DNA of 64,000 nucleotides from Penicillium oxalicum (lineage: Eukaryota; Ascomycota; Eurotiomycetes; Eurotiales; Aspergillaceae), in the NCBI RefSeq assembly GCF_001723175.1, contig NC_064655.1, positions 3,100,001 to 3,164,000 of the forward strand, given 5' to 3'. The notes under the pieces were generated by a model. The model worked only from the letters and a program-made list of their open reading frames with translations. It made no database searches and had not been told where the DNA came from. Shown here one piece after another: positions 1,479 through 53,210 of the stretch (position 1 is the first letter of the stretch; every line of letters begins with the position of its first letter). Position numbers and translations under genes: made by a program.

Positions 1479-3632
1479 CTACATCGTCATTCGTAAGTCG
1501 CGGACACGTCGCCGGCTGGCGCGGGTGTTGTGGCGCGGCTCATGACCATCCCCAAGGGGCGTCGCGGTGCGGGCATCGGAAAGCTCAGGCGTAGGCGTGA
1601 CCCCAAAGCTGATACCGCGGTCGCGGCGCGAGACACGGGCTTCCGAGTCGGGCGACAAGAAGCGATGGATCGTGCGATGATCCATCACCCGTTCCTCGCG
1701 GCCGGGCCCCTTGTCGGTCTTGGGCCATTGGAACCCGTAGATCTTCGAGTGCCGCTCGCACCGAGGGCATTCGCGCCGGGTCTGGTAGGAATTGGACTGC
1801 ACAAACCACGACTCGCAGGTCTGGCAGTCTACCCAGCGGTCGTACTTTTGAGCCAGGAGCCGGGACGTCTTGGTGTAGTCCCCGGGAGTGCGAGCGACGG
1901 GAACCTCATCCTCGACCGAAGCCACAACCGCCCAGTTCCGCTTGCGGCGGGGCTTTCGCTTCTTAGCCACGACGGTCTGGAGGGTATCGTCTAAGTCAAG
2001 GTGGCTTGGTAAGTCTGAGAGTTCACTGGGGGTTGGGGTGGGGCTCGGGGGGAGGAGATGGCATTCTCTGGCTGACCTGTAGGGGGGCTATCGGAGTGAT
2101 CCTCATGGTATTCTCCTTGGGAAGGATCTGGGTGGTCGCAATGGCCAGCAATGTTGGCGTGGTCGGAATGGTGGGCGGGATAGGAGTGGGTGGGCGAGTC
2201 GGAGTGGTCAGCGGGTGCGGGTGTCTCGATCTTCACTTTCGCGTCAGTGTCATCTACAGAAGTGAGGAGGGTGGAAGTCGAAGATCGATGACTTTCGGCA
2301 GTGAAGCTAGGTGAGAGACGATCATTCGGGCCGTTGACGGGCTCGGAGATGGGGGTCGGGTTGACGAGGATGACTTCATCCGCGTCCACGGCCGAAAGAT
2401 CTGTCACACTGAGTTGTGGCTGTTGGCTCTCCTGGGTCGACGGAAGCAACGTCTCCAGGCACGAGTGAACGTCCTCAGTGACCACGATCTCCTGTCTCAA
2501 CTTAGAGATCTGGCGCTCACCAGCGATACCCGCGGGGACGACGGGGACGTCGGTGTCCGAGTCGGGGGTGGGAGGGTTGTCGGACTCGGGAGTTGCGGTG
2601 GTCTCGAGCGCGACATCGGACATGCAGATCTCCTCGCACAGCTTGGAGGTCTGGCGAGTGAATTTGACCCGCTTGTTGGAAGAGGCGCAGGCCAAGGATG
2701 CATCCTCCGCATCCGAGTCCGAGTCTCGGCGACGCTTCTTGGTCGATCCGGTTGACTCCTCTGAGATGTCCTCGTCTGCTTTGACCGGGGGCGCCCACCC
2801 ATTGCGCACCGCACGCTCACAAGTCTGGCACAGGCACTCGCAATTGTCGATTCCAAAATAGTCCTCGCCATAGGAGACAGTGATTTCTTCTCCTTCATGG
2901 ATGTCGCGAGTGGCCATGACAGACATCCCCTCCGTGCCTCGGGTTACCAGGCGACCGTTGGCGTCACAGTCGTGGTTGGCGAATCGCGCGGGCCCCAGGA
3001 AGAAAGAGGGGGTCTTGCGGCGGCTAGACATGACCACGCTGAAATCCTTGCGAGTGAGTCCCAAGTCCATCTCTTCTTCCTTGGTCATCGCGACCAATGT
3101 CCCAGACAGATACTTGATCTCCTGGCCAGCCTTGATGAACTTTCGGGCGCAGATTGCCGCCTCGTGTTGGGTGATAATGTACCGATTTGTGGTCGTGACC
3201 TCGAAGGGGCAGTCGGGCTGATACATTTGAATGTACTTGCGGAGATGGCGGCAGAACCAGTCCTTGTCGCGAGAGCCTTTGAGATTGGCCACATACTTGC
3301 GAAGGCCTGGTAATTCCAGCAGCTTTTTTTCCGCCACGGCTGAGTCCTTTGCGACCACCACATCGTGGAGGAGAATGCGGCCGACATCGTCGTCATGGAT
3401 GCCGCGGGCTGGGTTGTATTTGTTGCGATTCTTTCGCGTAGTGGTCCAAAAGTAAGCCTGTAACAGAACATGGTCAATCGATTTTCCGCGGTCATCTATT
3501 CTCAGCAGGGATTCCTACGTGATCAACAAGCGCATCCGTTGCGACATCATCATAGCTAGCCAGTTTATCCAGAGTAAGACGCTCACGGCGCTCGGCCGCA
3601 GGCGAGGTGGTGCGCGCTTTCTTGAGCGGCAT
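1479..3632 (-). CDS. set9: Histone H4 lysine-20 methyltransferase Set9
   Basis: Three exons (3632..3519, 3457..2077, 2014..1479) encode 676 residues. The introns of 61 and 62 nt have good donors and acceptors, and the second restores frame between two long open stretches. Exon 1 starts [10 protein letters not shown] and matches the Set9 N-terminus ([20 protein letters not shown], then [11 protein letters not shown]). The SET domain spans about residues 135-260, with NHDC at 199-202, YGEDYF at about 234-239 and the post-SET cysteines CECLCQTC just after. A long acidic, Ser/Pro-rich, probably disordered region follows, then a conserved C-terminal cysteine motif (CQTCESWFV...CPRCERH). Family role: S-adenosylmethionine-dependent methylation of histone H4 Lys20 in the nucleus, linked to DNA-damage signalling. 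Length fits the Eurotiales family. Confidence 0.95.
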
Positions 3633-32107: not shown

Positions 32108-35100
32108 ATGGACTTTACAACCCATTCACCTCGGAGCCCCGCGGCCACATCGTCCAGGCCCGACGTGATGAACGACCCGGCTTATGACAAGCGAGATGCT
32201 GGACCAGAAGATGCGGATACATGCCGAATATGCCATGGAGAAGGATCGGAGGAGGAACCGCTGTTTTACCCGTGCAAATGCAGTGGCAGTATCAAATATG
32301 TCCACCAAAGCTGCTTAGTGGAGTGGCTGTCACACTCGCAGAAGAAGCACTGCGAACTTTGCAAGACACATTTTCGATTCACGAAACTCTACGATCCAAA
32401 TATGCCAAACAGCCTTCCAACGCCACTCTTCCTTCAACAAGCCTTCCTCCAGGTGGTCCGGACTCTCATCACCTGGTTGCGATTTGTTCTCGTGGCTTTT
32501 GTATGGTTGGGCTGGCTGCCATGGTCGATGCGAGCGATATGGAGGGCACTTTTTTGGCTTGCGGATGGCCGTTGGTCGGCTGCAGGGTCTTCTCAACAGG
32601 CCGGGTCGAGCTCCAGTCAAGCTACGAATCACACAGGTAGTGCCGCTGCCGCTTTAACATCGATTGGCCTTGCGGATTCAAGTTCCACCTCTGCCTTGCC
32701 GTCCGCTTCCGCAATAGCAGTGCAGCCAGGGCAATCACCCAGCAATGGCTTCCCTACTGACGAGCCGCTAATGCTCACTCTGATCAAGAAACTTATTCCG
32801 AGTCTTTTTGTCCCTGCATGGTCATCCAGCAACAATGGAAGCATACCGCAAGCCAGTGACGTTTCCAGCACATCAAAAGCACGCTACCCGTCATGGCTCT
32901 CGGACGTCAAATTTCTCAGGGCCTTGACGCCTTATCCGACCATTAACAATATGATCATCGACACCCTTGAGGGGCAGTTGATCACACTTCTTGTCGTCGT
33001 CGCCTTTATTCTTCTATTTTTGATTCGAGAATGGGTGGTCCAACAGCAGCCCATGGCAAATATCGCAGAGGGAGAGCGGGAGGCTGCATTACAATTGATT
33101 GCCAACGATCGAATCGTTGACGATCTCGGTGGGCCACAACCAGAACCGGCGGTGGATCATCTTGACGAAGATCATGAACCCGATTTCCGTCTACCCCGGG
33201 ATGCCAATGATGCTCTACCTGGCGGTCCCCGGCAACATTCCCCTGCGCCCTCGTGGACTGATTCGGATGACGGTCTTCCTGCATATGAAAGACTGGCAGA
33301 GTTTCGTGATGAAGAATTCCCCAGACGCCGGTTTGGAGATGATGATATGGTGGACTCCGATCAACCAGAACAGGAGTCGGCAGACGTCCCATATCCATCG
33401 GACGTCTTGTTGCTTCGAGACATCCTGAGACGGGCCAATGGTGATCGTAATGAGATTCTACGAATTATCCGCCGCGAAGGTCATGAAGCAGAGCTGGCTT
33501 GGATTGTCGAGGCGATGGATAGAGAACCAGACGAGCGCACGGTTGCCGGACCATCATCTCGCGTGGAAGATCTCTACATGGCTCACCGGGGAAGCTCTTC
33601 AAATGGACTTGGAGCGGAAATTGCAAACACCCAAGGGAGCGCCGACACTCCTGCCTCGTCGGCTACAGCCCAAGCTCACAATGAGGCACATGTGGGATCA
33701 GCAAACGAACACCAGAACATTGCAAATCCAGAACCAGAGCCTGTGAAATCCTTAGTTGAGCGAACGATTGATTGGTTTTGGGGAGACATTGCGCCCGAAG
33801 GTCATGATAACGACGATGGCCTTTTACAAGATGAGGAACGGATTGTGCAGGACCCCGCTCTGGAAGATCCCTTCGTTCCTGTTCAAAACCGACTGGACCA
33901 GCGGCCCGCTGAAGATGCGGCTGCAGCTGCGCCTGGAGCCGACGGACCACTGGAAGGCAACGATGCGGATGCTATTGACGGTGACGATTTTGACGGCATC
34001 TTAGACCTCATTGGCATGCAAGGTCCTATTTTTGGGCTCCTCCAAAATGGGGTATTTTGCGCACTTCTTATTGCATTCACTATAGCGATTGGGATTTGGC
34101 TTCCCTACCTATGGGGCAAAATCGCTCTTGTCCTTCTAGCCAATCCTTTGCAACTTGTCATCGGTGTGCCTATGACAGCTGTCACCATCATCGCAGATAT
34201 TGTACTTGACACTCTCATTGGGTCCCTGGGCTACGCAATGTATTGGTTAAGTATTGTCTTGAAAGTACTCACCAGTCCATTCGGAAATTTCGGGCCCGCA
34301 TTCGAGTGGATGTCGACATCTCGGTCTTTTACCAGCACCTCTCTCTCATTGATCGGCAAAAGCACGGACCGGTTGAACAAAGTCGTCCGAACATTTTTGA
34401 TACTTCAAGAGTCCGACATCCCCATGTTTTCTGTGCTTTCTCACCAGGCCCTCAAATTGCACCAGGCACGGATTGTGGCTCTGTGTAGGTCTCTGTTCGC
34501 TGTCTTCAAGTTCACTCTTCATGACTTCCCTCTGCGGTTAATGACGGGGACCCCTGGCGCGTTCATGAACGACTTCAAGCTTTCGGATATCGCCGACGTT
34601 ACAGCACATGTGAAGGCCTCTTTTGGTAACTTGACAATCTCGTCGATTTTTGCTAGTCCTGGGCCTACGCTTTTGGGTACTAATGCTGCCCGAACAAACT
34701 CTGCTGCTATCTATCTTGAGGAAGAGTTGGCTGTATGGGACACCAAGGATCGTGCGATAGCCATTGCCATGGGGTATCTCCTCGCCACCATGGTAGGCTT
34801 TCTATATCTGCGAATCAGCGGTCTGCTTGCCGGCGCCAATCGTGGCCAAAGAGTCGACGGAGTCGTTGCTGAAGTGCTCCTTCAAGCTGGAGGTGTCATG
34901 AAAGTGATTCTGATCATCGGCATAGAGATGATTGTTTTCCCTCTGTATTGTGGTACCTTGCTGGATGTTGCTCTCTTGCCTCTCTTTTCCGGCGCGACAA
35001 TATCCTCGCGTATGGCATTCACGGTGGCTTCTCCTCTGACATCTCTGTTTGTGCATTGGTTCATTGGGACATGTTACATGTTCCACTTTGCCCTATTCGT

Positions 35101-36770
35101 GTCCATGTGCCGAAAGATCCTAAGAAGTGGTGTCCTTTGTAAGCATAGTTCTGACCCTGGGGTAGACTTCGCCCCCTTTCGCTCCCTGTACTGATATATT
35201 GGCAGACTTTATCCGTGATCCTGATGACCCCACCTTCCATCCTATCCGAGACGTGCTCGAGCGCAGCATCACCACTCAACTTCGAAAAATTGGCTTCAGT
35301 GCTCTAGTCTACGGCGCCTTGGTCATTGTCTGCCTTGGTGGCGTTGTATGGGGGTTATTCTTCGCGTTCAGTGATGTTTTACCCATTCACTGGTCATCCA
35401 GTGCGCCAATGCTGGAATTTCCCGTGGACCTCCTTTTCTACAATTTCGTGCTGCCACTCGCACTGCAGTCCGTCAAACCCTCAGATATCCTCCATGACGT
35501 CTATGATTGGTGGTTCCACAAGTGTGCTCACTTCTTGCGGCTGAGCAACTTCTTCTTTCCCGAAAGACATCCCGAGGAGGAGGGACGCCACGTCCGGCGG
35601 ACTTGGTGGAGCTTCCTTCTTGGTCAGCAAGGTGACTGGAAGCACCCGGTTGTCAGCAACAACGGTCAAGTTGCAGCTGAACAGGAGAGTCAGGATGTCT
35701 ATTTCCTCCGGGATGGCCGCTATGTGCGCGCTCCAGCGTCTGACCAAGTCCGCATCCCAAAGGGCACGAGAGTCTTTGTGGATGTGACTGAAGACAACAG
35801 TCGGCTTGACGGCCTCCCCGATTTGGATGATGGGCTTCATGGGCGTACGAATCCTAATTTCACGAAAGTCTACATTCCCCCTTACTTCCGGACTCGCATC
35901 GCTGCTTTTATCGTCTTGATCTGGCTTTTCGCTGCTATCACTGGCGTAGGTATCACAGTGGTGCCGCTCGTCATGGGACGCGTGATTGCTTCCGTCTGCT
36001 TTTCCAGCCCCGTCCCCGTCAACGATATTTACGCTTTTTCGATTGGTCTTTCAGTGGTGGCTGCCCTAGGCTACACCGCGTACTACTGCCGGGTAGCTCT
36101 TCAGGCTTTGCGCGAGAATCGGAACGCATATATGAGGTCGCCACGCGAGGTTGCCAAACTTCTAGGCAGCACTGTACTCGATTTCACCAGGCTCTTGTAT
36201 CTTGCGACTGCCCTGGGGGTGGTGCTTCCGTCGCTCTTTGCTCTTCTCACCGAATTGTATGTTTTGATTCCGGCGCACACATTCATCGCAGATGGGCAAG
36301 ACCACGTCATACATATTGTTCAGGATTGGACGCTGGGGGTCTTGTATGTCCAAATGGCGATCAAGCTCATCCTTTGGCATCCCCAATCCTGGGCAGCGGC
36401 CGCTCTCAATGGCGTCTTCCGCCAAGGCTGGCTCAAGCCCAACGTGTCCCTCGCAACCCGTGCGCTAATCTTGCCAATGGTGCTTCTCGCCTTCATCGCA
36501 ATCACTGCCCCGCTCTTGCTAGGATTCGTATTGCGATGTACCCTGTTCTTCGCGCGTGGCGGAGCGCAACCTGAAATTTATCGCTTCGCTTATCCAGCCA
36601 CCCTCTCGGTCGTTCTGGCAATGTGGAGTGTTCATTTCATTGTGCGCAAGTTGACAATTTGGCGCATCCATATCCGCGACGATGTCTATTTGATTGGCGA
36701 GCGGTTACATAACTTCAGCGAGAAGCGGGCGCGGGACGTTGGAGTCTCGCGACGGGTTCTCACGGGCTAG
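32108..36770 (+). CDS. SSM4: RING-CH E3 ubiquitin ligase Doa10/Ssm4 (MARCH6 type)
   Basis: Two exons (32108..35138 and 35206..36770, intron 67 nt) encode 1531 residues. The N-terminal RING-CH finger has the C4HC3 set C39, C42, C56, C58, H66, C69, C82 and C85 (TCRICHGEGSEEEPLFYPCK; VHQSCLVEWL; HCELCKTHF). Many transmembrane segments follow (for example residues 110-140 and 295-312, then clusters after 640), with a large acidic loop at about 330-640. The conserved junction [20 protein letters not shown] confirms the splice. The enzyme sits in the ER and inner nuclear membrane and ubiquitinates proteins with misfolded cytosolic or membrane degrons, using Ubc6 and Ubc7. Size is close to yeast Doa10 (about 1300) and larger than MARCH6. 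Confidence 0.94.
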
Positions 36771-37585: not shown

Positions 37586-40500
37586 ATGTCCGTGATGCGC
37601 CATGGAGGAAGCGGCTTTCTCCAGCGTCGCCTCACGAAGCTCTACACTGATACCAAGACCTCATGCGAAAGTGTGACGACTGCATCCAAAGCTCTCGATG
37701 ACCCAGAATTGATTGCGCTCCATGAAAGCTTCCAGAAGCAGCGGGATCGTTTACTTTCATGGGGTTTGGATTGGAGCGACGCCAGTGCCGCTCAGCCGAA
37801 TGATATTGACGAATCTTTGACTGCCGCCGGCTTCAGTGATGTTGTCGAAAGTGTGATGTCTACGATTCAGGACTTGCTGAATGATGCGGAGCGTGTGCAG
37901 CACATTGATCCGCCAATGACCTCCAAGGAACACAAAGTCGACCTGCCGACAAAAGACACTCTTAGCGGTCGACCTCTCAAGACCCAGTGGACAGACGATG
38001 ATATCAGCCGCTCCAAGACGATCTTGACTGATTTGACCTCATGCATCGACACACTGTATGAGCTGTCCACTTCACGCCGCACGATGGCATCCAGTATGTC
38101 ATCGAGCAAGCACAATATGGCCGGTCGCCGATCGAAAACGCATCCTCTTCCATCCCACGATACTCCACACAGGTCGTACTCCGATAGCAAGGAGAAGATG
38201 AGATCCTCTAAACAGGGATACGAGGCCTTCTTTTCCACACCTATGAAATCCAAAATCGATCAGGCCCCAGATCTGGTTATTGAGCACTCCGCGTTACAAC
38301 TATTCGGTACTACCCACGACAGCAGTCCACCCCCGTACGAATCGGTTGCAGCCTCAACGAACTCTCGCATGGTGGGGCGTCTGCGAACGTCTTCATGCCC
38401 ATTGCTTCGGGACACAGTGACAGATTCCCATGTGTCCGTGCTGGTAGAGTTCATGCCCATGATTGTCGATTCTCAGACGAATGCGAAGCCTTCACGTTTG
38501 GGAAAACTGCAAAAGTCTCTCGATCTCCTTCTTCATAATTCTAGAGTCGGGCATCTGGGACTTTTGAGGTTTCTTGGATACTGCACTGACGATCGTCATG
38601 CCCGTTACGCCTTCCTTTACCAGATGCCTGTTGATTATTTCCCCTTTTTGCGCAATCCAAGTGACCTTTTGAAGGAGCTCAAGCCCATCTCCTTGGGTGC
38701 GCTACTTCCATCAACCGAGGACTATCGTGAGAAGCGGATGCCAAATTTGGAGACACGCTTTCGCCTGGCCTATGATCTGATGATGTCCGTCTTGCATATG
38801 AGAAGCCAGAATGTGGTGCATGGCAATATCAACAGCAGCAACATCATTTTCTTCCCTGGCCGGACCGATGCTAGTCACGACGAGAGTGGTCTGGCTCCAG
38901 ATATGCGGCGACCATATTTGACCTCGCCGGCACGCTTTTCTGCCGACGGGCCTACTCCGGAGCTACTTTCAACGGCGATGTATCGTCATCCCGATGACAA
39001 GAGAATAATCGAGGACGAGGCCGCTTGGGCATACGATCTCTACTCTCTGGGCCTGGTGCTGTTAGAGATTGGGCTTTGGGCTCCAATTGGTCGCCTTTGG
39101 AAACAAAAGTACGACCGGTCCTGGTTTAAGCATCGCATCGAAGACCTTTACGTGAAGAAACTAGGTTCAAAATGCGGTACCGCGTACCTCCAAGCTGTGC
39201 AGCTTTGTCTCGACGCTCCAAACTTTCACCTCTCGACCCAGCCGATGACCGACCTGACCCTTCGTGTGCCTCAAATCTACCACTACCCGGTTCTGGAGCA
39301 GTCTGATCCTGACGGCACCTTCTCCTTCTCCATGAATTTCCTTTACACGATATGTAAAGTCCTTTGGGCGTGCACTCGCATCGACATCTTCGCTGCTCCA
39401 CCGGCAGAAGAACTCGATGATTCTCTGCCCCTGGCTCTCGTTCCATCCCCAGAGCTTACACCAGCCACAGAGGTTGCGGAGCCCCTCTCATTCCATAACG
39501 AGCCGCTCGGCCTGGAAAAGGATCTACCACCACTTCCCCATCAACAGTGGGAAGTACGACCCGAGCAAACCATGATCGAAAGACCGGCAAAGAAAAGAAC
39601 TGTCAAACGTCTCCCACACCTCGAAATACCCGACGACCATCTTCAAGAATGGAACTTTCAGGTCATGCCTCGCCTCAGTCGGCTTCTTCAGAAAATTTTG
39701 AAAGAGTCAGATGAGTCGTGCGGGGTGAGCCTCATGATGACCGGCGAAGACCTTGAAAGCGCTAAAACCACCATTTGCGTCACCTGTGCCAGCGTCAAGA
39801 AAGTTCGATCGGCTTTGAAGAAGCACTTCCCTCTTGACCGCGAAGATTGGGATCTCATTGTCCTTCGTGGAGATATTGAAAGGTCTAAAGTTCCCCGCGC
39901 GAAGCGCCGGAAGCCTGCGAAGACACGTCCCAATGGCTCGAACGAGACGCCTTTCCGCCAGCGTGAGCTAAATCCATGCTATCAACAAAGACCTTTGTGC
40001 GGCGCATCGATCGGAGCTTTTCAGAACGAGGAGCACTTGCCTCCCGTATCCTACGGTGGTGCTGTGCTTGTTGATGGTTATCCATACGGTCTCACGGTCC
40101 ACCACATGCTCGAGGCGCCGAGTGATGACGAAGATCTTGAAGACGATGAGCCCGAGGCACCTTTTCGTTCTGCGGGTACAGGGCCCCGGGATGCTTCCCA
40201 GGCAGCTTCTAGCGTTAGCAACCAAGATCTCACATACTCCTGGCGCGATGACGAGCCTTCAGAGGCCAACCTGGACCTTGAAATCTCAGACTCAGAAGAT
40301 GACGAGTCAACTTCTCCTGCGGCCGAGGGTGATGGCGATGAGTACTGGCTGTCCGAGGATGACGAGTCGGATGACGAGTCGGTTGAGGGTGCTGACGAGG
40401 ATGACTTTGACGACGACGCGGCATCGGTTGGTGATACTGCTGGCGTTGAGCCAGGGGAGGAGCCACGGCTGTTGGTCACACAACCAGCTATTGACGACGT

Positions 40501-41707
40501 GCACAAAGATTTTTTTCCTTCGCTTGAAGACCGGGATGACGAACATCTCGCCTCACACTCTCTTGGTTACGTCCACGCCTCTTCGGGTCTCCGTCGTTGG
40601 ACGCGCCAAGGGATGAAGCATGAAATCGACTGGGCCCTCATCAAAGTCGACGATACTCGCATGGATGCCCGCAACATCATCGTCGACACGACGACGCTGC
40701 TCCCCGGTCGACCGGGGTTTGGGCGGGGCCAACCACACCCAATTTATCTGAATCAGGTCGCTCGCACCGAGGAACTCGGAGGATTGACCGTCCACTGCTG
40801 TGGTCGCACCAGCGGGTTACAGACTGGACAGATATCTAAAGCCATGACACTCGTCAAGTTACATGGCCGCCATTCATTCTCAACCAGCTTTTCTGTGAAT
40901 GGAAATTTTGGAGGTAAGCGGCGTCACTCTGCGGATTCTCTTTGCTTTTCACGCCATTTTTAGTTAGATACCCTTGTTGTGATGGATAGTCTGGGTCGAC
41001 TCCTCGCTCTATTGATCTCCTTCCCACTGCCTTTCCTGCCCTCGTTGTTTTCCGTCTTGTATAAGGCCAGCAGTGTAATCCAAAACCATTGCTCTTCCAA
41101 AACCACGAGGAGCAACGCAAAGCTCGTCCTCATGTCCATATGTATGGAGTAAATCTATCACCGAAAGATTGCTAACCCTTTCCACCCAGCCCCTGGTGAC
41201 TCCGGCGCCTGGGTTTTCGATAGGTCTACCGGCCGCGTTTGTGGTCACGTCCTGGCTTGGTCAGCGCGATCAAATACAACCTACATTCTCCCCATGGAAG
41301 TCATTTTCGAAGATATTCGGCGGACTCTCAACGCGACCCTCGTCTGTCTCCCTGGCGATCCCAGTCGCGGTCTCAGTTACGCCAGCCCGACGCCTCCTCT
41401 CCATCCTGGAGGGTACGGTTATCCGAGTCCACAACTGGCAGATGATTTTGGCCGGCTCGCCATTCGAGGCCCTCCACCAGGTCCACCGGGTGTTCCTCCA
41501 CGTCCGGTTGCCCACCCATATGGGTATCACCCGGGCGGTTTCGCTCGTCCTCCGCCTCCTCCACCACCACCACCACCACCTCCTCCTCCTCCTCCTCCTC
41601 CTCCTCCCCGTCCGGGATCTCAAGAGGCTCAACTATACAGGGGTGTTGGTCCCATCCCACCTTCATTACTGGCTGGACCCCGGAACATTGAGCGACAATT
41701 TGCTTGA
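37586..41707 (+). CDS. HeLo-like / pseudokinase / trypsin-like serine protease fusion
   Basis: Two exons (37586..40913 and 41190..41707, intron 276 nt) encode 1281 residues. Residues 1-170 are helical, with a QKQRDRLLSWGLDWSD segment (W59) and ESLTAAGFSDVVESVMSTI, resembling the L-x-x-W-G pattern of fungal HeLo domains. A kinase-like fold spans about 280-560: the catalytic loop is HGNINSSN at 412-419 in place of HRDxKxxN, and YDLYSLGLVLLE (D484) matches the DxYSLG helix; no DFG is visible, so a pseudokinase. Residues about 810-1150 look like a trypsin-fold protease: GASIGAF, GGAVLVDGYPYGLTVHHML (H840), a long acidic insert, DWALIKVDD (D1015) and PGDSGAWVFD (S1114). The tail is a long polyproline run. 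A signalling or cell-death role is inferred only from architecture. Confidence 0.8.
41550..41612 (+). repeat. CCT/CCA trinucleotide repeat (polyproline tract)
   Basis: A run of CCT and CCA codons encodes about 20 prolines near the C-terminus of the fusion protein. The repeat is in frame, so length changes by whole codons would be tolerated. Confidence 0.85.
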
Positions 41708-42502: not shown

Positions 42503-43747
42503 ATGATTGAACTAGGGCTAGGTCGCATAGCGCGGCTCGTTCAACAAACCCCGCTGACATGGTCAGCCATCCACATCGCTGGCACCAACGGTAAAGGCTC
42601 CATCAGTGCCTACCTCTCTCATTTACTCTCCGCGGGTGGTGTCCGATGCGGTCGCTTCACCTCGCCACACCTGATTGACAAATGGGACTGTATCACCATC
42701 GGGGAGCGAGTGGTTCAGGAGTCGCTGTTTCGAAAGATCGAATCTCAAGTCAAGCAGCGGGATGAAAAGCTTGGGATCGGTGCATCCGAATTCGAGCTCT
42801 TAACTGCCACTGCGTTTGAGATCTTCAACCATGAGCAGGTTGAAGTAGGAGTGGTGGAGGTGGGCATGGGTGGACGTCTCGACGCTACCAATGTGTTGAG
42901 TAATGTCCTTGTCTCGGTCATCGCCAAGATTGGAATGGATCACCAGGCGTTCCTCGGATCGACTATGGAAGAGATTGCTCGAGAGAAGGGCGGCATCCTC
43001 AAACCGGGCGTGCCTTGTGTGATTGACAACACCAACGAGCCGGGGGTGATCCAGACGTTATCCGGCCTTGTGCAAGAACTTGGGATCGACGCAAACTTCG
43101 TCTCCCCCGACAAGGTCGAGGAGCAGATCCCAGCGCTGGCCCAGCTCTTCAAGACCTGGGACCTGGAGCCTCACCAAGAAGAGAACATGTGCTCTGCTGT
43201 ATCTGCATTGCGTATTGCATTGGCGAGACTTCGTCCTCAGACAGATGCATCGTCCCTACTGTCTCGTCTTTCGGAAGTTCGATGGCCAGGACGCTTGGAG
43301 AGCGTGGTTCTTCACCCTCTTATTGCCCGCACGCAGCCTGTTCTTCTGGACGGCGCCCATAATCCGCAGTCTGCTGCCGTGCTCGGACGTTACGTCGATC
43401 GGAAACTCCGTGCTCATTCGCGAAACGTGACCTGGGTGATTGCCGCTTCAAGCGGTAAAGACCTAGCGGGCGTGTTTTGCTCGATCATTCGTCCTGGTGA
43501 CAATGTGGCGACAGCCGAGTTCGGCCCGGTCGATGGCATGCCCTGGGTCACTCCCACTAAGGCTGCTGATCTTGCCAAAACCATTGAGTCAATCCCGGAG
43601 ATCGGACAGGTGAAGAGCTTCCAAGGGGACCTGCTTCCTGCTATTCAATGGGCCAGCGAGATATCCCCGGAGGGGCCTGTGGTGATTGCCGGCAGTCTGT
43701 ATCTTGTCTCAGATATCCATCGCCTCCTTCGAGATGCCCAGAAATGA
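42503..43747 (+). CDS. FOL3: Dihydrofolate synthase (folylpolyglutamate synthase family)
   Basis: Single exon, 414 residues. It begins MIELGLGRIARLVQQTPL, the standard fungal Fol3 start, followed by the ATP loop HIAGTNGKGSISAYL at about 24-38 and GRFTSPHLIDKWDCITI. Mur-ligase-family signatures follow: EVGMGGRLDATNVL, the KIGMDHQAFLGSTMEEIARE block with its conserved His, and LLDGAHNPQSA near 290. The enzyme joins glutamate to dihydropteroate to make dihydrofolate, the step between Fol1 and Dfr1. The yeast paralogue Met7 extends polyglutamate chains; the short length and start favour Fol3. Confidence 0.92.
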   Translation: MIELGLGRIARLVQQTPLTWSAIHIAGTNGKGSISAYLSHLLSAGGVRCGRFTSPHLIDKWDCITIGERVVQESLFRKIESQVKQRDEKLGIGASEFELLTATAFEIFNHEQVEVGVVEVGMGGRLDATNVLSNVLVSVIAKIGMDHQAFLGSTMEEIAREKGGILKPGVPCVIDNTNEPGVIQTLSGLVQELGIDANFVSPDKVEEQIPALAQLFKTWDLEPHQEENMCSAVSALRIALARLRPQTDASSLLSRLSEVRWPGRLESVVLHPLIARTQPVLLDGAHNPQSAAVLGRYVDRKLRAHSRNVTWVIAASSGKDLAGVFCSIIRPGDNVATAEFGPVDGMPWVTPTKAADLAKTIESIPEIGQVKSFQGDLLPAIQWASEISPEGPVVIAGSLYLVSDIHRLLRDAQK

Positions 43748-49496: not shown

Positions 49497-52400
49497 ATGC
49501 GGATTCCAATCGCCGTGCAGCTTGCGCTGCTCGTCCTGTTGACCACCTTGACCGGGATCGCCATCCTTGCAATCACCACAGTATGCTCATCTGTCCTCCA
49601 CCTTTCTGCTCCTCGCCGACCGAGACCTATTTTCATAAGAGATGGTCAAAAACGCGACCCCGTTGCTGATGTCGCACTAGTGGTTTACTACATATGACTT
49701 TGTCGTCGATGTCGGGTAAGTTGGATACAAAAATGCCGCGGACGCTAGAATGTGGCCGTGTATAGCAAGGCATCAAGCACGAACCCACATTGACTGTTTC
49801 TGCAACAGCTCCCAGGGTCTCGAGCTGGTCGCATCGATCAAGGCCAGTCAGATTGCATCCACTCTGGAAGTGCTAGAAGTTACCTGCAAGACCATCTCGA
49901 CTCGCATCTTGATTCAAGCTGCCCTGAAACGGAATATCAATGGCAACACCAGCAGCAGCAACTGGTCCAATTCACTATTGGATTTCCAATCCGCCTTGGG
50001 CAGCCGTGGCTATCTCAGCCTATACCAGGTGATGCTTTATTCGCGCGATGGCCAACAAGGCAGTTCTCGACTACTGAATGTCACCAGCGACACGCTTCCC
50101 GATATCACGCTTCCGTGGGCCGACGAAAATGGCAGCGCGGTCAAGCTGAGCAGTACCGTCTTTCCTCCGTCGCTCTATCCAAACATCACCTATTCTGAAA
50201 CCCAGAATGAAAACGGCGTCTCCTCCATCACAGCGTACGCCTTCCCTGACTCACCGCTGGGCTTGCATACGGCTTTGCTGTTGGGTCCTCTGTGGGTCAA
50301 TGACTCGTTCTCGTTGGTGTCATTGACGCTCCCGATTGTCAACAACACATCCGATACTGAGCTCCTCGGGTTTATGACGTGAGTGAATTCCTCACTATAT
50401 GCTTTGCACCAGAGAGGTTAACAAATGATCAGGGTTTTGGCCAGCGCTGCCAACATTCAAGACGTGGTCTCGTCTCGCGATGGCCTCGGTGAGACGGGTC
50501 AAGTGCTGCTGATAGGTCCATCACGGCCACAGAACAGATTTGTCAAAGATGCGCAGCCTGCCACGGCCAGCACGACCCCTGATTCCGCAGCTCTGGCCGA
50601 CGCGCAGGTTCACTACGTCTTTGAGCCCACGCCACTTCCCGGCCAGGCCAGCCGGCACAGTAAAATGAACACCAGCACGCCTTTTAGTCTTTCCATGTAC
50701 AAAACTGCCCTGGAGATTATGAACCGACCATATTCCCAAGAGAACAAGACCCTGAGTGAGCTGTCAACGACCAACGAAGAAGGAAACTCGGTGGCAGTTG
50801 GTGTCATTCGTCCCCAAACCAGCTTAGCGCAGTGGATTCTGGTGGTAGAGGAGACTCATTCGGAAGCCTTCAGCCCAGTCTACCGCTTGAGGAAGATTAT
50901 CTTGGCATGCTTCTTTGGTACCGCTGGGGCCATTCTTCTATTAGTTCCTATCCTTGCCCACTTTGCCGTGACTCCGATTCGAAGACTTCGAGAGGCCGCA
51001 CGGAGATCCGTCATTCCGCAGATGCCCAGCCCGCCATCTTCGCGACAAGCACCACACCGTCTCCACTCGACAGAAAGTGATCCTGAAGGCCTGGAAGAGA
51101 AATTTGATGAGAAGAGCGGGCCTGCCGCTTGGATCCATGCGATGCGCCGATCAGGCAAGCAGCGAATCAGCAGTACCAACGATGTGGTGGAGGACACTTC
51201 TCGTCGGCCCTTCCAGATCCCCGCCCGTGTCAAGGAGCGGCGCCACTGCGTGAGGGACGAGCTTACGGAATTGACTAGTACATTCAACGAGATGTCGGAC
51301 GAACTGACCATCCAATACAACCGGCTGGAGGAGCGTGTGGCCGAGCGCACCCGTGAATTAGAGAAGGCCAAGCTGGCTGCTGAGACCGCCAACGAAAGCA
51401 AGACACTCTTCATCGCAAACATTTCGCACGAGTTGAAGACGCCGCTGAACGGCATCCTCGGCATGTGCGCAGTTTGTATGGGAGATGACAATCTCGCGCG
51501 CGTGAAAAAGTCCCTTCAAGTGGTGTACCAGTCCGGTGACCTGCTCTTGCATCTGTTGAACGACTTGTTGACATTCAGCAAGAACCAAATCGAGCAGGCG
51601 ATTCAATTGGAAGAGAAGGAATTCCGTGTCTCCGATATCCGTGCCCAGTTGACCACCATTTTCCAAAACCAAGTCCACGAGAAGAAAATCAACTTCAGTG
51701 TGGACTGCTTTGCGGGGAATGAAGTGCAGACGGGTCCGCTGAGTCAACTGTCCGGGAACCAAGACCATGCGCGACCCCGGTCAAGCACAGACACCGCGAA
51801 CGGGACCAAACTCATGGATATGGTGCTCTGGGGAGACCAGCATCGCATTCTCCAAGTGCTGATCAACTTGGTGAGCAACAGTTTGAAATTCACGCCCGAA
51901 CGAGGAACCGTCGAAGTTCGAATTCGCTGTCTGGGCGAATTCCATGGTCCGTTGGAGGATATCGATTTCCCCACGGGATCCCGCTCTGGCAACGCTCAGA
52001 TGCTCGTTGACACGACCCCCATTCGGAAGACCGTGACGGACCGATTGCAACCAGTCGAGAGATCAAGTGAAGACCAGATATCATTGATTGCCCGGCTTCC
52101 CCAATTGGTTTTCCAATTCGAAGTTGAGGACAATGGGCCTGGCATTCCTGCGCATCTCCAGCGGCGTGTATTCGATCCCTTTGTGCAGGGTGATCTTGGA
52201 TTGAATCGAAAATACGGTGGTACAGGTCTGGGGCTGAGTATCTGTGCTCAATTGTCCCGAATCATGGGTGGATTGATTCTCTTGGACAGTCAGGAAGGAC
52301 AAGGGTCGATGTTCACTCTTCGCATTCCTCTGCGATTTGTCAAGGAAGCGGCTCCCAGCACACTGGCCCCCAGTACGCCCGGTTCCAGAACACCCAGTGT

Positions 52401-53210
52401 GCTCTCGCTGGAGGAATTCTCCAATGCGGCTCGCACGCCCTCCAATCACTCCGTGCGAAATGAGACCGTTGCACCCGGGTTTGAAAAATCGGAAGTCCAG
52501 CCACGCTTGGTTGGTCTGAGCCAGCCATTCTTCACCCCGACGGTTCCCTCCAACGCGTCTGCTCCACCCCCTAAAGCCAACGGTGATACGGCCGCTCAGG
52601 CAGATGGTACGAAAAAGATCCGCGTGCTGGTGGCCGAGGATAACACTGTGAATCAAGAAGTCGTGCGACGGTAGGAAGACCCTTCCATGCCCCCTCTTGT
52701 CTTCCCGACGGCCTGAGCTAATTGTGTTTTAGAATGTTGGCCCTCGAGGAGGTGTACGATGTGACCATGGTAAAAGATGGACAGGAAGCTTTCGACACAG
52801 TCAAGGCGAACATGGAGAAAGGCACCGTGTTTGATCTGATCTTCATGGATATCCAGGTAAGCCAGGGCCCCTCCGCCGGACGAGTCACGACCGCCGCTTA
52901 CCAATTACAGATGCCCAACCTGGACGGACTCCAAAGCACCCGACTGATCCGCGAGATTGGTTATTCTGCACCCATCGTGGCTCTCAGTGCATTCGCTGAA
53001 GAGAGCAACATCAAAGACTGCATGGACAGTGGCATGGACATGTTCATGAGGTGTGTACCGATCAAATCCACTTTCTTTTTCTTGTTCTCCCTCGGCCGTA
53101 TATCTCATCACTAACTGGGGAACAGCAAACCGCTCCGTCGGCCTGTACTGAAGCAGGTGCTCCACAAATTCGCCACGATTCCTGAAGAAACGGAATCCAA
53201 CGCATCTTGA
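49497..53210 (+). CDS. sln1: Sln1-type hybrid sensor histidine kinase (TcsB)
   Basis: Seven exons (49497..49580, 49681..49715, 49809..50378, 50433..52670, 52733..52856, 52911..53050, 53126..53210) encode 1091 residues. The N-terminal membrane segment ([20 protein letters not shown]) precedes an extracellular domain with many N-glycosylation sequons, then a second membrane helix ([20 protein letters not shown]) and a HAMP-like linker. The kinase core has the H box [19 protein letters not shown] (H562), N box [14 protein letters not shown], and G boxes VEDNGPGIP and GGTGLGLSI. The receiver carries [12 protein letters not shown], acceptor Asp in FMDIQMPNLDG (D1015) and the conserved Lys in SKPLRR. 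This protein is the membrane osmosensor feeding the Ypd1-Ssk1-HOG phosphorelay. Introns 1, 5 and 6 split conserved motifs and fix the model. Confidence 0.94.

Follow-up and report, generated by a model that had tools for sequence, protein, structure and literature searches.

The Slt pathway of Pezizomycotina acts in the response to cation and alkaline stress. Its signalling protease in Aspergillus nidulans, SltB (AN6132), was described in 2015 as a 1272-residue protein combining a pseudokinase and a serine endoprotease and signalling to the transcription factor SltA, and loss of sltB function causes hypersensitivity to cations and to alkaline pH (PMC4557415). Later work (PMC11011638, 2024) states that the protease activity of SltB leads to auto-proteolysis, which frees the pseudokinase prodomain, and that SltB processes SltA from 78 to 32 kDa, a step prevented by sltB deletion. 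Processed SltA is in turn needed for sltB and sltA expression in A. nidulans, as published. Here and below, statements on PMC4557415, PMC11011638, PMC10197012 and PMC12881547 refer to the portions of these texts that were covered. Here we discuss a gene of Penicillium oxalicum that lies at positions 37,586 to 41,707 of a 64,000-nucleotide stretch of contig NC_064655.1 (positions 3,100,001 to 3,164,000; "the window"). Its product joins, in one chain, a helical N-terminal region that is HeLo-like to a pseudokinase and to a serine protease of the PA clan. From its sequence, we consider the product to be the Penicillium orthologue of SltB, with a probability of about 0.94.

The frame that begins at the start codon is open over 1125 codons, and splicing out the single intron (Table 1) gives a 1281-residue protein. 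The 1109-residue product of exon 1 matches 320 proteins at E<=0.001, some of them annotated gene models about 1230 to 1320 residues long, and the three-part protein is therefore not a product of chance. Within the best 120 of these 320 matches, which were listed, the best-matching named protein (P0002, Penicillium ucsense) shares 86% identity over 100% of exon 1. Column counts given below come from an alignment of 195 proteins of at least 1080 residues, out of 326 collected (196 rows with the window protein). Three-part relatives are present in Eurotiomycetes, Leotiomycetes and Sordariomycetes, classes assigned from organism names and general knowledge. When 35 Eurotiomycetes and 22 relatives from other classes are aligned separately, the two alignments match over positions 11-1090 of 1211 (E 2e-189). 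The original prediction, made from the DNA letters, had placed these three parts in one protein at this location; gene model, profiles and relatives agree with it, the HeLo part by modest scores, and the residue numbers it gave (H840, D1015, S1114 and HGNINSSN at 412-419) are correct.

The assignment to SltB follows from the position and phase of the intron, from the published residues found in a 1272-residue relative and from the conservation of all three parts across fungal classes. A. nidulans sltB has one intron, with its donor at nucleotides 3413-4, i.e., after base 1 of codon 1138 (PMC4557415). In the window, the donor follows base 1 of codon 1110, and both donors lie just ahead of the PGDSG motif. 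Place and phase are thus alike, while the intron is 276 nucleotides long in the window and about 66 in A. nidulans. An alternative splice donor 4 nucleotides downstream is reported for Aspergillus sltB (PMC4557415); it is GT there, whereas the matching place in the window (4 nucleotides beyond the donor at 40914-40919) reads GC. In the Aspergillus recurvatus relative P0095 (1272 residues), 8 of 12 published SltB residues occur at exactly the published number (N544, Y568, E743, H925, T972, F1126, S1142 and G1156), and the three Asp candidates 1037, 1046 and 1049 each lie one position earlier. As published for SltB, the window protein also has the same length class, a pseudokinase lacking VAIK, HRD and DFG, the Ser-1142 region, the residues hit by mutations and the distribution in Pezizomycotina. 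A protease search of the 30.8-Mb host genome gave a single match at E<=1. Hence, although the original prediction knew of no described protein with all three parts, one had been described in 2015, with the HeLo part unnamed in the text covered (PMC4557415). The kind of protein is already known; what is of interest beyond it are the links to HeLo domains and to plant NAL1.

For the protease, the predicted structure of relative P0130 (pTM 0.81) supports a chymotrypsin fold, and the catalytic residues follow in the order His-Asp-Ser, as in PA-clan proteases. The predicted triad comprises H840, D1015 and S1114. Ser is present in 147 of 147 rows with a residue in the S1114 column (48 rows have none); in two of these, P0091 and P0096, the frame reads on into the intron (GDSR); they were set aside, which leaves 145 usable rows. 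The trypsin-like triad with a long acidic insert between His and Asp was part of the original prediction, and it holds up in the conservation among relatives and in the fold of the P0130 model, where the stretch matching the insert has low pLDDT. Our choice of residues differs from that published, where His925 (Discussion) or His939 (section 3.4) is proposed together with Asp 1037, 1046 or 1049 (PMC4557415). Across the 196 rows, the His925 column holds mostly gaps, V, T, A and I, and the 939 column holds D in 163; in P0095 itself, position 939, given as His in one section of PMC4557415, is D. The equivalents of Asp-1046 and Asp-1049 are D in 53 and 112 rows. In contrast, the TVHH motif (window residues 839-840 for the His pair; 873/874 in P0095) and the Asp-1037 equivalent (window residue 1015) are the same in all 196 rows, and they are therefore the better choice for the triad. 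The chymotrypsin motif is the basis for taking the second His of the pair as catalytic. We infer that this His, rather than the published His925, is the probable catalytic residue; the analysis thus replaces the published His and picks one of the three published Asp candidates. Glu710, which corresponds to SltB Glu743 (altered in sltB106), lies in the alpha/beta domain ahead of the protease and is E in 196 of 196 rows.

The kinase-like region is dead by motif. The column of the HRD Asp reads N in 183 of the 195 relatives (otherwise S in five, D in three, K in two and A or H in one each), and none of them has the Lys that should follow. In place of the presumed VAIK Lys, 193 have E and two have D, and the presumed DFG place has mostly L-T-S and no DFG. 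The loss of the Asp and Lys of HRDxK noted earlier for this one sequence thus extends to its relatives. Three of them (P0297, P0298 and P0305) keep Asp at the HRD position (HGD), with the Lys still lost. Searching PDB by sequence with exon 1 gave kinase matches at chance level only.

The N-terminus can, with modest confidence, be called HeLo-like. The L-x-x-W-G segment that the original prediction noted in a helical N-terminus is matched by LSWGLDW at residues 57-63. Pfam HeLo (PF14479) is found at E<=0.01 in 29 of 35 members, and among six orthologues scanned three exceed the cut-off of 23.2 bits (P0040 27.7, P0042 25.0 and P0086 28.3). With one HeLo sequence from this genome, hhalign gives a colinear pairing of low probability that takes in the WG and the final IDxLY segment. 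Some relatives already carry database names that point to a HeLo-type domain, for instance "HET-s/LopB domain protein". Helix 1, however, is unlike that of canonical HeLo domains. In the window protein its best 19-residue hydropathy is 0.29, whereas two HeLo controls of this genome reach 1.63 and 1.26; values for 100 orthologues starting MSV run from -0.32 to 0.75, and those for another 75 full-length relatives, in some of which the start is called late, do not exceed 0.22. By hydropathy, transmembrane propensity was found in the N-terminal helix neither of the window protein nor of these relatives. A basic RRL(T/S) segment appears to take the place of the hydrophobic helix. In the 160 rows with a residue (35 are gapped), position 14 is R in 158, 15 is R and 16 is L in all 160, and at 17 there are 154 T and 6 S; 157 of 195 proteins have RRL(T/S)(K/R) among their first 60 residues, and a later Met is the start of most of the other 38. 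Basophilic kinases, PKA among them, have RRx(S/T) as their consensus, and the exchange of T for S at residue 17 would fit the behavior expected of a phosphosite, which makes it a predicted site.

The closest solved fold to the protease module of P0130 is that of plant NAL1, at about 15% identity. The P0130 model aligns with NAL1 over 300 residues, from model residue 4, in the alpha/beta domain, and with alpha-lytic protease over 187 residues, from residue 122. Because of these alignment ranges, the alpha/beta domain is probably shared with NAL1. A maize paper describes NAL1 as a plant-specific protease, and the aligned chains of NAL1 (Narrow leaf 1 of rice) have neither the HeLo nor the pseudokinase part of the window protein. 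No match in PDB was obtained by sequence search with P0130, and the profiles A1 and A3 gave only chance-level matches, alphavirus capsid proteases and ribosomal L23. By way of function, a comparison can be drawn with Ssy5 (MEROPS S64) of the yeast SPS sensor, a prodomain protease that activates transcription factors by cleavage and is not known to have a HeLo or kinase-like part. The SltB-type protease works alike, with a prodomain and transcription-factor cleavage, and the window protein adds the HeLo-like and kinase-like parts. Peptidase S64 (PF08192) matches are weak: two of 35 members at E<=0.01 (best E 0.0035) and two of 44 at E<=10; scores of two members are 10.6 and 12.3 bits, against a cut-off of 23.6. 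The same link between SltB and Ssy5 was drawn in PMC4557415.

The catalytic His in TVHH, the NAL1 fold and the HeLo-like N-terminus are three points not found in the covered texts of PMC4557415 and PMC11011638. The terms "helo domain" and "het-s" have 0 occurrences in the former and "helo" has 0 in the latter; a 2016 paper on SltA/SltB proteolysis, outside the scope of this analysis, may say more, also on the triad.

Collectively, these data allow a model in which P. oxalicum SltB would have the same role as that of A. nidulans, from which this role is predicted. The protease would cut its own chain, free the N-terminal pseudokinase prodomain and then process SltA. The N-terminal half may be an MLKL-like module, a HeLo-type bundle with a pseudokinase, that has given up attack on membranes and now serves as a regulatory prodomain with a possible phosphosite at RRL(T/S). 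The C-terminal half would combine the chymotrypsin-fold protease with the extra alpha/beta domain in a NAL1-like arrangement, using H840, D1015 and S1114. A bolder and rather doubtful proposal is that SltB derives from an executioner of the MLKL type that was converted into a stress sensor, in which helix 1 lost its membrane activity and became a phospho-regulated RRL(T/S) switch and the HeLo-pseudokinase part a cleavable prodomain, fused to a NAL1-type protease.

Several observations weigh against one or another part of this picture. The residue comparison relied on published SltB numbering applied to P0095, not on the AN6132 sequence itself. Upstream of the gene, AGGCA (SltA) sites are not enriched (4 in 1150 bp, 2.2 expected, P 0.18). 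The auto-proteolysis is taken from the introduction of PMC11011638 rather than from the primary SltB/SltA proteolysis paper. As to HeLo, the window protein reaches 19.9 bits when its N-terminal piece is scanned and 14.8 over the full chain, both below the cut-off, and the other three orthologues also stay below it (P0100 20.9, P0119 17.5 and P0120 19.4); the closest relative, P0002, has no HeLo match at E<=0.01. The colinear hhalign pairing has a probability of 4.8% (E 0.0083). A comparison with a HeLo-pseudokinase gene elsewhere in the genome (L006) aligns the kinase part only, and the Foldseek and VIA lists, which covered residues 1-620, are filled by kinases. With an amphipathic moment of 1.30, not far under the 1.53 and 1.50 of the controls, helix 1 may still touch membranes peripherally. 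The relation to NAL1 appears to be one of fold only: the Nal1 profile PF25819 has no match in the genome, where the positive control was silent too, and no Nal1 family is listed among 44 relatives scanned.

The strongest competitor, although very improbable, is that the protein executes cell death, with the HeLo bundle, freed by the pseudokinase or by self-cleavage, perforating membranes like MLKL or HET-S. A helical region followed by a pseudokinase, with HeLo profile matches above the cut-off in half of the six orthologues, is indeed the order found in MLKL and recalls HET-S and HELLP; some fungal HELL domains sit in kinase or pseudokinase proteins (review PMC12881547), and the amphipathic moment just given is not far from that of the controls. 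However, killing by HeLo domains needs a membrane-prone first helix (PMC10197012), and helix 1 of the window protein is polar and basic, with a hydropathy far under that of the controls. This hydropathy also speaks against the mechanism of MLKL, in which phosphorylation of the pseudokinase releases a membrane-active 4HB. Unlike those proteins, it lacks the hydrophobic first helix and is fused to a protease, and the published role of SltB is in stress tolerance, the null mutant being stress-sensitive. The cell-death switch was rejected on these grounds, little membrane propensity and a null phenotype of lost cation/alkali tolerance. Of the earlier proposal of a "pseudokinase-gated protease or cell-death switch", the gating thus agrees with the prodomain release of SltB (PMC11011638), and the cell-death half is unsupported.

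It is less probable still that the chain is a scaffold whose dead protease keeps its fold for binding only. Thr replaces Ser in one of 97 aligned members (P0211, GDTG), and the sltB mutations published in 2015 missed the putative triad (PMC4557415). On the other hand, His and Asp are invariant in 195 of 195 rows and Ser is present in all the usable ones, and the block of SltA processing on sltB deletion is ascribed to SltB protease activity (PMC11011638). Least probable of all is a protease that activates a fungal gasdermin: such proteases consist of several domains, which may include kinase-like ones (PMC12881547), but those known are mostly of the S8 or CHAT type and encoded near a gasdermin gene, the window protease has a chymotrypsin fold, a Pfam scan of 10 of the 122 listed window open reading frames (ORFs) showed no gasdermin family, and SltA is already published as the substrate.

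Table 1. Coordinates (window positions) of the sltB orthologue and of its predicted parts
Feature	Position	Strand	Remark
Putative sltB orthologue, exon 1	37586..40913	+	codons 1-1109 and base 1 of codon 1110
Single intron	40914..41189	+	276 nt; GTAAGC ... CTAAC ... CAG; phase 1 in codon 1110
Exon 2	41190..41707	+	PGDSG, last part of protease, Pro-rich tail, stop
HeLo-like region, residues 11-174	37616..38107	+	predicted helices 11-28, 40-58, 84-105, 137-174 (low confidence in places); Pfam HeLo, hhalign
RRLT motif, residues 14-17 in helix 1	37625..37636	+	would replace hydrophobic helix of canonical HeLo
Pseudokinase domain, residues 225-603	38258..39394	+	Pfam DUF7580 at 364-546
Degenerate catalytic loop HGNINSSN, residues 412-419	38819..38842	+	
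Alpha/beta domain ahead of protease, about residues 680-775	39623..39910	+	high confidence in P0130 model
PA-clan serine protease domain, about residues 800-1165	39983..41356	+	spans intron
Predicted catalytic His840	40103..40105	+	H in 195/195
Acidic insert between His and Asp, about residues 843-960	40112..40465	+	variable, C-terminal end conserved
Predicted catalytic Asp1015	40628..40630	+	D in 195/195; SltB Asp-1037 allowing a one-residue shift
Predicted catalytic Ser1114	41201..41203	+	SltB Ser-1142

The second match to the window protein in the genome is the L006 gene, with a divergently transcribed kinase alongside. The HeLo-pseudokinase frame (L006 370-2031, - strand) has the loop HKNIWSRG and keeps DWG, and the kinase (L006 2410-3507, + strand) has HGDVKPEN and DFG. 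In A. nidulans, the pseudokinase gene pskA also has a divergent kinase gene, ffkA, beside it (PMC4557415), and the L006 pair looks like the orthologous pair, which also favors the assignment of the window protein to SltB. The kinase-like part of PskA (AN7985) is related to that of SltB; PskA has no protease, and pskA deletion gives no Slt phenotype (PMC4557415). Elsewhere, two 3600-base stretches about 105 kb apart (L004 and L005, G000:C3 near 3288536 and 3393570) are identical at 3600 of 3600 positions, which reflects either a recent duplication or an assembly artefact. L004 holds a HeLo ORF and a P-loop ORF that, by eye, resembles an NLR.

Some further features of the family and of the neighborhood can be added. 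The C-terminus (window 41690-41704) is conserved in the Eurotiomycete set: among its 71 members that have the GDSGAW segment, ERQLA closes the chain in 52, and the last residues of the window protein are ERQFA. Relatives P0134 and P0139 have sub-threshold matches to the IQ (calmodulin-binding) motif ahead of the protease module, with none listed for the window protein; this motif could tie the protease to calcium in some lineages. A 1246-residue protein, P0248, named as from a Rickettsiales metagenome-assembled genome, ranks amid the fungal relatives and is probably a contamination of that assembly. Among prokaryote genome contigs, 10 stretches fit the search patterns and 0 were confirmed, phage records gave 0 matches, and an NCBIfam scan gave one irrelevant sub-threshold match only. 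Upstream, at window 32108-36770, two open frames encode a MARCHF6-like E3 ligase (RINGv, MARCHF6_C). Downstream lie a Mur-ligase-type ORF (42503-43747), which we take to be perhaps a folylpolyglutamate synthase, and a histidine kinase ORF (50425-52674).

The covered texts of PMC4557415 and PMC11011638 give no explanation of how ion or pH stress activates SltB. In this context, a HeLo-pseudokinase prodomain joined to a NAL1-like protease would give concrete residues to probe. SltB would also show that the architecture of a death protein can serve ordinary homeostasis, and, if the bolder proposal is true, fungi and plants would share one type of protease architecture for cutting or degrading transcription regulators.

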